Of a stretch of 64,000 nucleotides of DNA, positions 32,045 to 49,471 are shown in pieces. How positions within the stretch are numbered: position 1 is the stretch's first letter; each line of letters opens with the position of its first letter. The position numbers were made by a program, and so were the translations under genes. The stretch comes from Acidithiobacillus acidisediminis (GTDB lineage Bacteria > Pseudomonadota > Gammaproteobacteria > Acidithiobacillales > Acidithiobacillaceae). The stretch covers positions 2,474,001 through 2,538,000 of the forward strand of contig NZ_JALQCS010000001.1 of assembly GCF_023277115.1 (NCBI RefSeq). Direction: 5' to 3'. Under the pieces are notes generated by a model that saw only the letters and a list, made by a program, of their open reading frames with translations, made no database searches and was not told the origin of the DNA.

Positions 32045-32320
32045 TCAGCGAGCCGCGTGCTCCTGCTCCAGCCGATACACCCAAGCCAGCAACTCCGCCA
32101 CCGCTTGGTACAGTTTTGGCGGGATTTCCCGGTCCAAGTCCAGTTGCATGAGCAGAGCCACCAGCTCCTGAGACTCATGGACGTAGACCCCAGCAGACTT
32201 GGCCGTGGCAATGATCTGCTCGGCGATCAGGCCTTGCCCCTTGGCCACCAGGGTTGGCGCCGAGGCCCCAGGACGGTAGTGCAGTGCCGCCGCGCTTTTT
32301 TGCTTATTCTGCTTGCTCAC
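32045..32320 (-). CDS. FlhB C-terminal-domain-like protein (free-standing)
   Basis: 91 residues from GTG 32320. It aligns with the cytoplasmic domain of this window's FlhB: ALHYRPGASAPTLVAKGQGLIAEQII against ALRYDEGKDAAPVLLAKGADRVAARI, and EIPPKLYQAVAELLAWVYRL against QIPAQLYRAVAELLSYLYQI (each given in part). It has no membrane helices and begins just after where the self-cleaving NPTH motif would be, so it lacks the switch site. Overlaps the end of the FliK-like gene by 17 bases and is therefore coupled. A role in substrate-specificity switching is inferred. Confidence 0.85.
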   Translation of the reverse strand: MSKQNKQKSAAALHYRPGASAPTLVAKGQGLIAEQIIATAKSAGVYVHESQELVALLMQLDLDREIPPKLYQAVAELLAWVYRLEQEHAAR

Positions 32321-33377
32321 TAGCCTCCTCGACCGCAACCTGCGGGTGCAATCCATAGGCTTGCAGAGCGTCTAACAGTTCCTGCTTCCTCGCCTGCAGC
32401 AATGCCAATACCGATGGCGTTGCCCGAATACGCATGTGCAAGGCGTCGGCGCGGATGCGCAGATGGGCGTCCAGCTTTCCCATCGCTGGCAAATCCAGCT
32501 GCACCCGACTGTCCCAGGAAGCCCCTTGCTCCTCTTGCTCCGCGTGACCGCCGCGAGAATCTTCTTGCCGACGCCCGATGGTCCAGGACACGCTCTGACC
32601 CGGCCATGGTGAAAACGTCCACAGCATCTGCTGCTGCAGGAGTGCCTGCCCTTGCTGTTGCAACAGCGGCTGCAGGGATGAGGGTAGTGCAGGCGATAAC
32701 GCGGCAGATAGTGCGGCGACCTGGGTATAGGCTCCCAGGGCTTGCTGTCCCTGCCAAGAAGGCGTCTCCGTCGTGCCAAAGATCGAGCTGCTGCCCTGCA
32801 GCAAAGTCCGCCCCACATTCTCCCCGCTCAGCAGCGGACTCAACCTGCCTTGTGGCTCCTGTAACAAGCGCTGCAGAGGATAGTTTCCCTGCGCCCAAGC
32901 CTTCAGATGTCCCTCATAAAAGAGACCACTATTCTCCACCCCTTGCTGTAGTGACGCAGCCAAGAGGGTACTGAATTGCTGGCCAGCGGGATCGAGGCGA
33001 GGCAGCGATAGAGCCGCTGGTGCTGCGCCCTCACCCACCGCAGAGGCAAACAAGGTTTGGGTCAGCAAGGATAGCGACGACTTTGGCAAACTCTGCTGCG
33101 CTTGTGGCTGCAACAGCAGGAATTTGGCTTGTTCCTGTCCGCCGAGATAAATCAGAGAGAGTTGCTGGACGTCACTGGGCCAGCGCTTAGGGAGCTGCAA
33201 TAGAAAATCCTGTCCCAGGATACGAACCAGGCTTTGCGTACCAGAACGCCCAACAATCAACCCAGAAAGCTGCGTCCCCGGCGCCGCAAAATTTGCCGCC
33301 GGTCTGCCTGTCGGCAGCGTCTGCCCTTCACCAATGCCGCCGAGCTGCGCCAGAATCGGAACGGGGTAGGTGGACAT
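32304..33377 (-). CDS. FliK-like hook-length control protein (second copy)
   Basis: 357 residues, Gln/Leu/Ser-rich in the middle. The C-terminal third (LPAMGKLDAHLRIRADALHMRIRATPSVLALLQARKQELLDALQAYG, given as description of its span) matches the Flg_hook domain that in FliK contacts FlhB to end hook export. Differs from the main fliK in length and sequence. It is coupled to a free FlhB C-domain gene. Upstream by 59 bp lies a YcgR gene. Could tune hook length or serve a different export switch; unproven. Confidence 0.72.
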   Translation of the reverse strand: MSTYPVPILAQLGGIGEGQTLPTGRPAANFAAPGTQLSGLIVGRSGTQSLVRILGQDFLLQLPKRWPSDVQQLSLIYLGGQEQAKFLLLQPQAQQSLPKSSLSLLTQTLFASAVGEGAAPAALSLPRLDPAGQQFSTLLAASLQQGVENSGLFYEGHLKAWAQGNYPLQRLLQEPQGRLSPLLSGENVGRTLLQGSSSIFGTTETPSWQGQQALGAYTQVAALSAALSPALPSSLQPLLQQQGQALLQQQMLWTFSPWPGQSVSWTIGRRQEDSRGGHAEQEEQGASWDSRVQLDLPAMGKLDAHLRIRADALHMRIRATPSVLALLQARKQELLDALQAYGLHPQVAVEEASEQAE

Positions 33378-33436: not shown

Positions 33437-34243
33437 TCAACCCTGCCACCAACGGCGCAATTTTGCCCCCAGACCGAGAGGTTTCTGGGGCACGCCGGCC
33501 TTGCCACTCGTCAACCCCAATCCCAAGGCTTTGAGAATCTCCCGATCACGAGTCTGCACATATTGGGCAATCATTTCCCGGGAAGTCAGAGCAGTACCAT
33601 CAAATTCGACACCAACGATCAGGGCATCACCTCGCGAACTATGCAAATCGGTGAAACGAACCATCCCTGGGAGCGTGATCTCTCCTCCGTGGCGCAGCTG
33701 AAATTGAACCTGAGGAAGGAATTCTCCCGCCTGCACCGGAAAATCTCGTGGTGCCGGCCGAAAAAGCGCACGCAATCCGCCCACGCTGATATCTTGCATG
33801 GTGCCGAGCAAGCGAGCGGCACCCTGACGGGTGATGGTGACCTGGTCTGGATCTTCAATGGCGGGCGGCACCCGGTACACTTGCCGCCGCTGCATCTGAT
33901 ACACGTTTTCAGGAAAGTCGATGACGAGTTCGTCATCTCCGCGCTCACGGAGCGTCGAGCAAAAACCCGTGATGACCCCATCTACGCGCACGAGCACCGT
34001 AACACCAGCGCCGACGCTGACCTGCTTGGGCAGGTCCACGGGAGGATCCAGGACCAGGGTGTTGGGGTTCACTCGTGGCAGGAGCATGGAGGTATAACTG
34101 TGCTCTCGCTCATCAAAAAACAGGGTACAGAACAGGTGCTCGTGCGCGACTCGCTCCAGCAGATGCAGCGCCTTACTCCCAGAGCCAAGCTGAAAATCCT
34201 TGCAGAACAATTTCTGTCGCAAATCCCGCAGATTTTCTGACAT
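33437..34243 (-). CDS. PilZ-domain flagellar brake protein, YcgR-like (copy 2)
   Basis: 268 residues with a YcgR N-terminal domain (about 1-115) and a PilZ domain with the canonical c-di-GMP motifs RRQVYR and QDISVGG. ATG 34243 fits the domain start; the longer frame runs through uvrB. Starts 25 bases after the uvrB stop, so it may ride on the uvrB transcript. The C-terminal tail (GLGAKLRRWWQG) is short and basic. Unlike copy 1 its DxSxxG motif is intact, so it is the more likely c-di-GMP responder. Confidence 0.87.
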   Translation of the reverse strand: MSENLRDLRQKLFCKDFQLGSGSKALHLLERVAHEHLFCTLFFDEREHSYTSMLLPRVNPNTLVLDPPVDLPKQVSVGAGVTVLVRVDGVITGFCSTLRERGDDELVIDFPENVYQMQRRQVYRVPPAIEDPDQVTITRQGAARLLGTMQDISVGGLRALFRPAPRDFPVQAGEFLPQVQFQLRHGGEITLPGMVRFTDLHSSRGDALIVGVEFDGTALTSREMIAQYVQTRDREILKALGLGLTSGKAGVPQKPLGLGAKLRRWWQG

Positions 34244-43308: not shown

Positions 43309-44439
43309 TCATCGTCCTCCCTGGTCGAGTTCTGCCGGAACAGACCATTCCTGCGGCAGCTCCGGGATCTGCCCCGGGCGTGCCAGTCGGATCTGGTACA
43401 AATAGGAGAGCAACTCCGCTACCGCCCGGTAGAGCTGGGCGGGAATCTGTTGCTCGAGTTCAACGTGGTGATACAAGGCACGTGCGAGCGGCGGGGCCTC
43501 CACCAGAGGAACGCCATGCTCGCGCGCGATCTCCCGGATCCTGGCCGCCACCCTGTCCGCCCCCTTGGCCAGCAGAACGGGAGCAGCGTCCTTTCCTTCG
43601 TCATAGCGCAGGGCTACCGCATAATGGGTGGGGTTGGTGACCACGACACTGGCCTTAGGCACCGCGGCCATCATGCGCCGCCGCGCCATCTCGCGTTGCA
43701 GAGTGCGAATACGGCGCTTGACCTCCGGATTGCCCTCCTGTTCCTTCATTTCGTCCTTCACTTCCTGTTCGGTCATTTTCAGTTTTTCGTTGTAGGACCA
43801 AAGCTGAAAGGGGACATCGAAGGCAACGATCAACAAGGTGCTGGCCGCCATGAAGAGAAACAACAGACCGAGCATCGCAAACAGGTGCAGAATGGCCGCC
43901 CGCGGATCTTCATCGATCAGACCGAGCAAGGCACGGCGCTGGGCATAGACCAAAGTGGCGCCGACACCGCCAATCACCAACGCCTTGAGCATCGCCTTTA
44001 CCAGCTCCAGGAGGGCATTGCGGGAGAACAGCCGCTGTAGCCCGGTGAGGGGATTGAGATGGGAAAAGTCGGGAACCAAGGCCTTGCCGCTGAAATTCCA
44101 CCCGCCCAAGGCCATGCCGGCGAGTAGCACAATCACCGTGAGTATCAGCAAGAAGGGCAAGAGCCAGTGCAAGGCATAGGCCGCCATATGCAGCAGGTGT
44201 TGCAGCAGATCGTGCTGGTTCAACATGGTGGCTGAGGACAGGTGCAGCCCAGCATAGAGAAACTGCTGGCTGCCGATATCCAGACGGGTACCGAAGAGAT
44301 AGAAAACCCCTCCCGCCACCAACAGGACCGCGCTGGTAGAGAGCTCACGAGAGCGCGGCACCTGCCCTTTGCGCCGCGCCTCCTCGATGCGTTTTCCCGT
44401 CGCCGCGTGTTGGCGTTCCTGCCCGCTGTCTTCTGCCAT
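43309..44439 (-). CDS. flhB: Flagellar export switch protein FlhB
   Basis: 376 residues. Four membrane helices, then the cytoplasmic domain with the self-cleaving NPTH motif (VVVTNPTHYAVALRY) that switches export from hook to filament proteins. N-terminal EERTEAAT-type region is seen as GKRIEEARRKGQVPRSREL. Starts 3 bases after fliR ends. A partial copy of its C-terminal domain is encoded at 32045-32320. Confidence 0.97.
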   Translation of the reverse strand: MAEDSGQERQHAATGKRIEEARRKGQVPRSRELSTSAVLLVAGGVFYLFGTRLDIGSQQFLYAGLHLSSATMLNQHDLLQHLLHMAAYALHWLLPFLLILTVIVLLAGMALGGWNFSGKALVPDFSHLNPLTGLQRLFSRNALLELVKAMLKALVIGGVGATLVYAQRRALLGLIDEDPRAAILHLFAMLGLLFLFMAASTLLIVAFDVPFQLWSYNEKLKMTEQEVKDEMKEQEGNPEVKRRIRTLQREMARRRMMAAVPKASVVVTNPTHYAVALRYDEGKDAAPVLLAKGADRVAARIREIAREHGVPLVEAPPLARALYHHVELEQQIPAQLYRAVAELLSYLYQIRLARPGQIPELPQEWSVPAELDQGGR

Positions 44440-48202: not shown

Positions 48203-49471
48203 CTAGACAAAAGTGCTCAGCAAACCCTGATGCACGGTCGCTGAAGGCAACGACGTGATGCCCTCCGCCAGGGTTTCCTCGATCTTCCCGCTCTGCGGCT
48301 CATTCCGCCTGCTCCCCGTCCACCCAGAGCTACCCGACCCCACACTCGCCTGGCCAAGCTGCAGACCCATGGCCGCAAAACTTTGCTGCAATTGAGGCAC
48401 GGCGGCGGCGATTGCCTCGCGCACCTCGGGATGTGCGGACAAAAAGACCGCCGATGCCTGACCGTTCTGGCTGACTCCCAATTGGACCACCAAGGGGCCC
48501 AGATGCTCTGGATGGATATGCAGGATCGCCTGTTGCACCCCGCCTTGACTCATCCACTGTAGCCCTTGCCCCAGGGCCTGCCCCCAGGCAGGTTGCTCCT
48601 GCAGAGCAGGAGTGAGCTGCAATTGTGCGGGTGCCGCCCCCTGCTGGTTGGACTGCGGCATCTGCACCAAGCTTAGCAGCGGACTTGCACCAGACACGAG
48701 GTTGGTACCGGGGTCTGCCAACTTGATCTTTTCCAGATTCTGCCCCTGACCGGGCGACCCGGCTTCCGTTGCCAGCAAGGAGCGAAAGGAAGACTGTGGG
48801 AGCGTAACCTGCACGGGCAGATCCGCTGTGGCAGCATGGCCGGGATGCGGATCTGGCATCTGTAGTGTGCCGGCATCCCGTAGCAGCTGCCGAGAGGGCA
48901 GAGACTTGTCGCTGTGGGCCAAGACCTCTTTCTCCGCTGTTATTCCAGCCCCCTGGTTTGGATAAGTTGGGAGGAAGCCGAGCACGCTCGTAACGGGCTC
49001 GGCAGTGCTGGATTGCTTGCCCTTTTTCTCTCCCTGCTGGTTTGCTCGTGGCGTCAGTTCCTGGGTCGACAAGATCGGCGCGATGGCTCCCGGCGCCGTG
49101 CTGGTTGCAGCGGGAGGCGGGACACCGGCGAGCAATTCGGACTGCTGCGCCGCCAACGCGGCCTTATCTCGGACAAGCAACGGTCCACTGTTGGGCGTGC
49201 CCGCCGCGGCGGAGCGCGCAGCGGGCTTCTTCCCGGCCGTATCTGTACCCGTCGCGGGACGCTGTACGGATTCCCCAGGCGAGCTCTGCTCTGACGTTTT
49301 GTTTGGCCCGCTCAAGGCTGAGTGATCGTCCTTCGCTACAGGTGCTTGCGTGTGCTGCGACAGGATCTGCGCAAAACCACTACGGGCGCCGCTACCACCG
49401 GGGTTCGCCGGCGGATTTGTGGAGGCTGCAGGTTCCGGGGTCGCTGGCGCAACGACAGGTAGCATACTCAT
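48203..49471 (-). CDS. fliK: Flagellar hook-length control protein FliK
   Basis: 422 residues. Long Pro/Ala/Gln/Ser-rich N-terminal ruler region (about 1-310) and a C-terminal Flg_hook domain with AILHIHPEHLGPLVVQLGVS and HPEVREAIAAAVPQLQQSFA. FliK measures hook length and triggers FlhB. A possible sigma-54 site lies just upstream, at the end of fliJ, so fliK onward may have its own promoter. Confidence 0.92.
   Translation of the reverse strand: MSMLPVVAPATPEPAASTNPPANPGGSGARSGFAQILSQHTQAPVAKDDHSALSGPNKTSEQSSPGESVQRPATGTDTAGKKPAARSAAAGTPNSGPLLVRDKAALAAQQSELLAGVPPPAATSTAPGAIAPILSTQELTPRANQQGEKKGKQSSTAEPVTSVLGFLPTYPNQGAGITAEKEVLAHSDKSLPSRQLLRDAGTLQMPDPHPGHAATADLPVQVTLPQSSFRSLLATEAGSPGQGQNLEKIKLADPGTNLVSGASPLLSLVQMPQSNQQGAAPAQLQLTPALQEQPAWGQALGQGLQWMSQGGVQQAILHIHPEHLGPLVVQLGVSQNGQASAVFLSAHPEVREAIAAAVPQLQQSFAAMGLQLGQASVGSGSSGWTGSRRNEPQSGKIEETLAEGITSLPSATVHQGLLSTFV

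Follow-up and report, generated by a model that had tools for sequence, protein, structure and literature searches.

A free-standing copy of the C-terminal (CC) domain of the flagellar export protein FlhB, here called FlhX, is encoded in Acidithiobacillus acidisediminis by a gene that overlaps the gene of a second FliK-type protein, FliK2. FliK2 is a paralogue distinct from ordinary FliK, as judged from its branch in the trees described below, and the two genes lie side by side in many families and in two phyla. We propose, as a plausible reading that falls somewhat short of being probable, that FlhX would serve the export switch as a spare, docking substrates and locking the early mode, with FliK2 as its dedicated non-ruler partner, and that both would belong to an ancient accessory export module. 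The stretch analysed (the window) comprises 64,000 nucleotides, and in its coordinates the relevant features are:

32045..32320, minus strand: FlhX, free FlhB C-terminal (CC) domain of 91 aa, with a GTG start, no NPTH and no membrane part.
32324..32330, minus strand: GAGGAGG, likely ribosome-binding site of flhX, within the fliK2 coding sequence.
32304..33377, minus strand: FliK2, second FliK-type protein, 357 aa, sharing 17 nt at its end with the start of FlhX.
32316..32543, minus strand: FliK-C/T3S4 domain of FliK2 (PF02120, Flg_hook, residues 279-354, E = 3.5e-10).
32904..32930, minus strand: FliK2 motif SGLFYEGHL, with the pattern S[GA].F.E..[LIV].
33111..33287, minus strand: N-terminal small beta-barrel of FliK2 in the AlphaFold2 model, about residues 31-89.
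33437..34243, minus strand: PilZ-domain gene directly upstream of fliK2, in the same orientation (PF07238, E = 7.9e-08).
43309..44439, minus strand: complete FlhB (main switch), PF01312 positions 1-334, E = 2.3e-125, with NPTH at residues 269-272.
48203..49471, minus strand: ordinary FliK (PF02120, E = 1.2e-19), with a 36-residue C-terminal tail.

Read from the GTG, which follows the GAGGAGG sequence at a distance of 3 nt, the flhX frame has 91 codons plus a stop; an alternative start, the ATG at 32356, would give a protein of 103 aa. FlhX is a member of the FlhB family PF01312 (63.6 bits, cut-off 24.4), and its match covers only the C-domain part of the profile, positions 260-335 (E = 2.5e-17), which agrees with the first-pass annotation of this DNA, where it was taken for a 91-residue copy of the FlhB cytoplasmic domain. 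The same annotation had the protein starting just after the place of the NPTH cleavage site. The autocleavage motif is indeed absent, with N-K-Q-K in its place, but FlhX begins four residues before the NPTH position and not just after it. Having neither a transmembrane domain nor an autocleaving NPTH, and with a PF01312 match that begins at 260, the FlhX of the window is not an FlhB export-gate protein proper; by eye, it also lacks the proline-rich end of FlhB. The NPxH motif was present in none of 39 aligned FlhX rows, and its N, P and H were each found in 31/31 FlhB sequences. The early-substrate pocket, which we take to be formed by A286, P287, A341 and L344 in Salmonella, is retained in the FlhX rows at its first three positions (A in 36/39, P in 39/39 and A in 39/39), and at the presumed fourth one FlhX carries L (19/39) or I (20/39), where all 31 FlhB sequences have L. 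The best NCBIfam model for FlhX was TIGR00789, 'FlhB-like' (E = 1.1e-24), of which it is not a member, as its 86.5 bits are below the curated cut-off of 117.35. This cut-off, on a model of 84 positions, drops a clear FlhX, and therefore genes of this kind may be left without a name or annotated as FlhB. The solved structures related to FlhX by sequence are the C-domains of FlhB, YscU and EscU, and its nearest named relatives belong to Igneacidithiobacillus and Acidithiobacillus (79-82% for FlhX).

The overlap of 17 bases reported at first was recovered at 32304-32320. A candidate FlhX start overlaps the upstream stop by 4-17 nt in each of 12 loci that were examined, taking the shortest choice where several starts were available; these include L024, whose upstream ORF gave no Flg_hook match. 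The changes in flhX with respect to its nearest relatives are mostly silent (dN/dS of 0.11 and, close to saturation, 0.04); fliK2 gives no ratio, its dS being saturated. The silent-site bias in flhX, together with the start/stop overlaps in 12/12 loci, indicates that this arrangement is more than chance. Long open frames at FlhX in three genomes (G191, G192 and G193) were suspected to be FliK2-FlhX fusions, and in these the FliK domain, worked out by hand, lies in another frame; no fusion of the two genes was found. FliK2 passes the PF02120 cut-off (40.0 bits versus 29.8), which bears out its description as a second FliK-type protein with a Flg_hook domain. The genome of the window has one complete FlhB and one Flg_hook protein besides FliK2, and both are encoded in the flagellar cluster of the window, where Pfam models also detected FlhA, a sigma-70 type factor, MotA, FliM and a FliI-type ATPase.

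The distribution of the pair was evaluated in several sets of genomes. Among 40 relatives, 23 have FlhX, each with an adjoining Flg_hook match (counted by hand). From the class, 77 genomes were sampled (one per family, the window's own included, completeness of 95 or more), and 30 of them have FlhX. Flg_hook was located upstream on the same strand in 30/30, the two domain matches being separated by 14-107 nt, and the 27 genomes with two or more Flg_hook matches all have FlhX. The comparison of genomes with and without flagella that had been suggested in the first-pass annotation gave FlhX in 28 of the 42 genomes with a complete FlhB versus 2 of the 35 without it. One of these (G182) is a fragmented assembly in which FlhA is present; the other (G171), a single contig, showed no FlhA match, and its flhX matches positions 261-310 only. 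The second phylum, that of G229 (Clostridiales), from which 61 genomes were sampled, yielded 41 FlhX in 39 genomes; 21/41 have Flg_hook 94-316 nt upstream, and all 23 second Flg_hook matches lie at most 1 kb from an FlhX (21 upstream, 2 downstream). No second Flg_hook match was detected at E 0.001 in 17 of these 39 FlhX genomes. The pairing is thus conserved far beyond close relatives; a restriction to close relatives, which had been named as a reason to discard it, was not observed.

In a phylum sample of 120 genomes, whose counts hold among the matches listed, Flg_hook was present within 1 kb upstream of 23/41 FlhX and missing within 1 kb of 18/41. Also among the matches listed, the second Flg_hook lies on another contig in G077 and G097, and 3.9-51 kb off on the same strand in G082, G094, G110 and G130. 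By eye, no FliK-like ORF adjoins flhX in the Helicobacter and Nautiliaceae loci. FlhX often occurs without FliK2. According to these counts, wherever a second FliK domain was detected in the class sample or in the second phylum it adjoined FlhX, which did not always hold in the phylum sample. Family f31 (for example G043, G051, G070 and G077) contributed nine FlhX without an adjacent Flg_hook among the matches listed.

To place both proteins among their relatives, we used trees that are unrooted and rest on few columns, with unsettled bootstraps, several long FliK2 rows and no SctP. In the short-domain tree, 64 FlhX and 46 FlhB sequences were parted by one branch (98/98), and a single branch (92/92) also separated 77 FlhX from 50 FlhB when 17 more rows, including a Helicobacter, were present. 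The same was observed for 40 FliK2 and 31 ordinary FliK sequences (100/99), as well as for 59 and 51, respectively, when the second phylum was included and L139 left out (99/91). The FlhX of the window falls with other free FlhB domains and its FliK2 with the FliKs of other pairs. These groupings suggest that part of the proteins scoring as 'FliK' correspond to a different paralogue, and judging from the sequences FlhX and FliK2 look older than the split of the two phyla, or else moved between them.

The FlhX half of the pair is not new, since a free FlhB C-domain (HP1575/FlhX) is already known. HP1575 of Helicobacter pylori reportedly, going by a 2006 title by Wand, acts as a 'spare part' when the CC domain of FlhB is deleted. 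The FlhX of the window resembles HP1575 and the TIGR00789 proteins in being an isolated FlhB CC domain that lacks both the membrane part and NPTH, with Helicobacter apodemus, and not HP1575 itself, standing in for Helicobacter in this comparison. The free domain of H. apodemus (L016) groups with the FlhX of the window, apart from FlhB; however, its flhX has no adjoining FliK-like ORF by eye and its genome has one Flg_hook match, whereas flhX overlaps fliK2 in the window. In Nitratiruptor, flhX is named together with fliK, outside the main flagellar cluster, in a passage of PMC9321776; the window shares this placement, and the fliK of Nitratiruptor, given in that passage by name alone, may be of either type. 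FliK2 shares with the FliK/SctP proteins (YscP, PscP) the C-terminal T3S4/Flg_hook domain, but it differs from them in its small N-terminal domain, its short or absent tail and its branch apart from ordinary FliK. In turn, FlhX shares with FlhB/SctU the CC domain and most pocket positions, but it has no transmembrane domain, CN part or autocleavage motif, and forms a separate branch. Among the literature matches listed, with subscription papers mostly outside their scope, none dealt with the function of a FliK paralogue adjoining FlhX or described the FliK partner as a separate paralogue class.

According to a report on Salmonella (PMC13344023, mBio 2026), early secretion is abolished when the FlhB CC domain is lost; the cleaved C-domain maintains the early state and serves as a dock for early substrates, and its disappearance at hook completion, which depends on FliK, constitutes the switch. 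Together with Fluke, the CC domain keeps the early mode. From excerpts of two other papers, FlhB-C is bound by the core of FliK-C in Salmonella (PMC6972891), and the C-domain of the related HrcU can work in trans (PMC3040844). The pair had been described initially as an 'already-switched copy' of the export switch. This is probably backwards, because in PMC13344023 the switched state is the one in which the CC domain has been lost, and we do not retain that wording; as the cleaved CC domain holds the early state, a more fitting reading of a free copy is that of a spare lock and dock. FlhX, a soluble paralogue of the cleaved FlhB CC fragment, would most likely occupy the place of this fragment, docking early substrates or holding the early mode, a role proposed by analogy with HP1575 and the genetics of Salmonella. 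The FliK-C domain of FliK2 would bind FlhX as FliK-C binds FlhB-C, and its folded N-domain may stand in for the ruler. With its tail short or missing, FliK2 would flip the switch less readily or not at all, and the overlap of the genes could keep both proteins in a fixed ratio. FliK2 may deliver or sequester FlhX, with whatever effect on switching this may have. It is also conceivable, if doubtful, that the pair is a second and ancient half of the export switch, in which FliK2 is a dedicated carrier that loads FlhX as a replaceable lock on the export gate, by which the early mode would be armed or re-armed at a step described as irreversible in Salmonella.

The pair could act instead as a decoy in the cytoplasm, where FlhX would bind ordinary FliK, or FliK2 would bind the complete FlhB, so that the switch is delayed or tuned; this corresponds to the competition with the main switch raised in the first-pass annotation. 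In favor of this possibility, FlhX retains the domain and the pocket positions of the FliK target, and the FliK-C domain is kept in FliK2. We correlated pairwise distances in 20 genomes, taking the partial correlation given the membrane part of FlhB. The distances of FliK2 track those of FlhX (r = 0.40; partial 0.33, p = 0.02, n = 20) and also those of the FlhB C-domain (r = 0.33; partial 0.30, p = 0.03), the latter being compatible with a decoy. The distances of ordinary FliK track the FlhB C-domain (r = 0.31; partial 0.27, p = 0.03) but not FlhX (r = 0.15; partial 0.03, p = 0.41), which is contrary to what a decoy for ordinary FliK would predict. This covariation weakly supports a partnership between FliK2 and FlhX, and would leave room for a contact between FliK2 and FlhB. 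In addition, a plain decoy would need no linked FliK paralogue, yet second FliK domains adjoin FlhX in 27/27 genomes of the class sample and 23/23 matches of the second phylum, although some of those listed in the phylum sample do not. We consider this alternative unlikely.

The architecture of FliK2 bears on a different proposal, namely that it is an exported second ruler or a switch catalyst serving in particular conditions, whose target would be FlhX loaded on the gate. The model of the FliK2 C-domain resembles the switch domain of PscP, 5cuk (Foldseek E = 3.6e-4, Z = 6.3), and 2rrl was also among the fold-search matches. In the FliK2 of the window, the Flg_hook domain stops three residues short of the stop codon, so that the C-terminal tail with terminal switch residues that characterizes FliK is missing; the normalised tail is -1, versus 36 in the ordinary FliK of the same genome. 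No tail was found either in the four other sampled members of its order (L051, L063, L064 and L065), the normalised values of the five being -11 to 0, and by eye the FliK2s of Acidithiobacillus, Tepidiphilus and Nitrosomonas also end soon past the domain, those of Hydrogenophilus less so. The median tail after Flg_hook was 13 residues in FliK2 (n = 40) versus 43 in ordinary FliK (n = 31), and 20 versus 53 in the second phylum (n = 20 each), counts that omit the FliK2 of G171 and the main FliKs of, for example, G079, G180, G185, G190, G193, G214, G218, G033 and G025. FliK2 tails are thus around 30 residues shorter than those of ordinary FliK, which argues against a second ruler. On the other hand, FliK is proposed in PMC13344023 to act through its last five residues on the CC domain of FlhB, and a terminal phi-D-x-x-phi motif like that of FliK is present in 20/35 proteobacterial FliK2s with a tail and in 19/20 of the second phylum. 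Many FliK2s may therefore still act on the switch; that of the window does not carry the motif.

The N-terminus also sets FliK2 apart from ordinary FliK. In the window, it was modelled by AlphaFold2 as a small five-stranded barrel (about residues 31-90, block pLDDT 79-86). An HMM of this domain, iterated from eight FliK2 seeds, matched 37 of 52 FliK2-labelled sequences, several of them cut at the front and one, the ORF of 611 aa that precedes FlhX in L024 (G229), without a Flg_hook match. It also matched 14/20 FliK2s of the second phylum (domain E < 1e-3) and none of 51 ordinary FliKs (31 of the first set, of which L122 is cut, and 20 of the second phylum taken at full length, one with a frame of only 135 aa). 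This count does not include 20 further proteobacterial ordinary FliKs, 2 of which are complete at the front; among the 40 FliK2s, 5 are cut at the front. The HMM misses the FliK2 of the window and its closest relatives L006, L007 and L010 (L005 has no front), and in the window the domain is assigned by alignment with relatives and by structure models. OB folds resembled the model weakly, with no Foldseek E of 0.001 or lower and a best Z of 5.4 that was equalled by unrelated chains, and we make no OB-fold assignment. The pattern S[GA].F.E..[LIV] was found in 21/40 FliK2s and in 0/31 ordinary FliKs, as well as in 0/20 FliK2s of the second phylum. Considering the shorter tails and the N-terminal domain absent from ordinary FliKs, we regard a second ruler or switch catalyst as improbable, and favor FliK2 as a non-ruler partner of FlhX.

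The gene neighborhood is the basis of another possibility, a brake linked to c-di-GMP in which the PilZ protein together with FliK2 and FlhX would pause flagellar building. The PilZ gene is possibly in the same operon as fliK2. In a tblastn search of 21 loci, five from Acidithiobacillus/Igneacidithiobacillus showed a PilZ relative upstream of fliK2 and two from Tepidiphilus showed one after flhX, but none was detected in the other 14, where some flanks are short and four correspond to complete FlhB genes. On balance, a brake of this kind seems quite improbable.

That flhX and fliK2 are non-functional remnants of old flagellar gene copies is hardly credible: shortened FlhX does occur in genomes without FlhA (G171 and G010), but the purifying selection on flhX noted above contradicts this reading in the present lineage, and the frames are intact and overlapping in many families, with a grouping on one branch across two phyla.

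In G171 (L026, 5498-5854), fliK2 and the shortened flhX persist near chemotaxis-like genes; the FlhB-family match of G010 is still smaller, and this genome also has no FlhA. Such genomes seem to be in the course of losing their flagella.

The way in which the flagellar export switch is first held and then released is a matter of ongoing research. A separable natural copy of the FlhB CC domain, accompanied by a linked FliK paralogue in two phyla, offers a clean test of the swap of this domain in trans, and the pair would also allow the re-arming of the switch to be tested.

Two members of the family to which the window belongs, G013 (C1:1928477-1929487) and G011 (C113), carry a different complete FlhB (E about 1e-96), and a gene with a FliK domain lies approximately 8-9 kb from it; G011 has no other FlhB match. 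This FlhB may perhaps belong to a second flagellar or secretion system.

An aromatic residue at position -2 was initially considered as a marker, being present in 31/31 ordinary gammaproteobacterial FliKs and in 1/55 FliK2s. It was withdrawn as a general rule, since it was found in 0/20 ordinary FliKs of the second phylum and in 9/20 of the further proteobacterial set. The occurrence of Y or F at this position in all 31 gammaproteobacterial ordinary FliKs (L066-L085, L116-L125 and that of the window), and not so elsewhere, may perhaps reflect a lineage change at the end of the protein that flips the switch.
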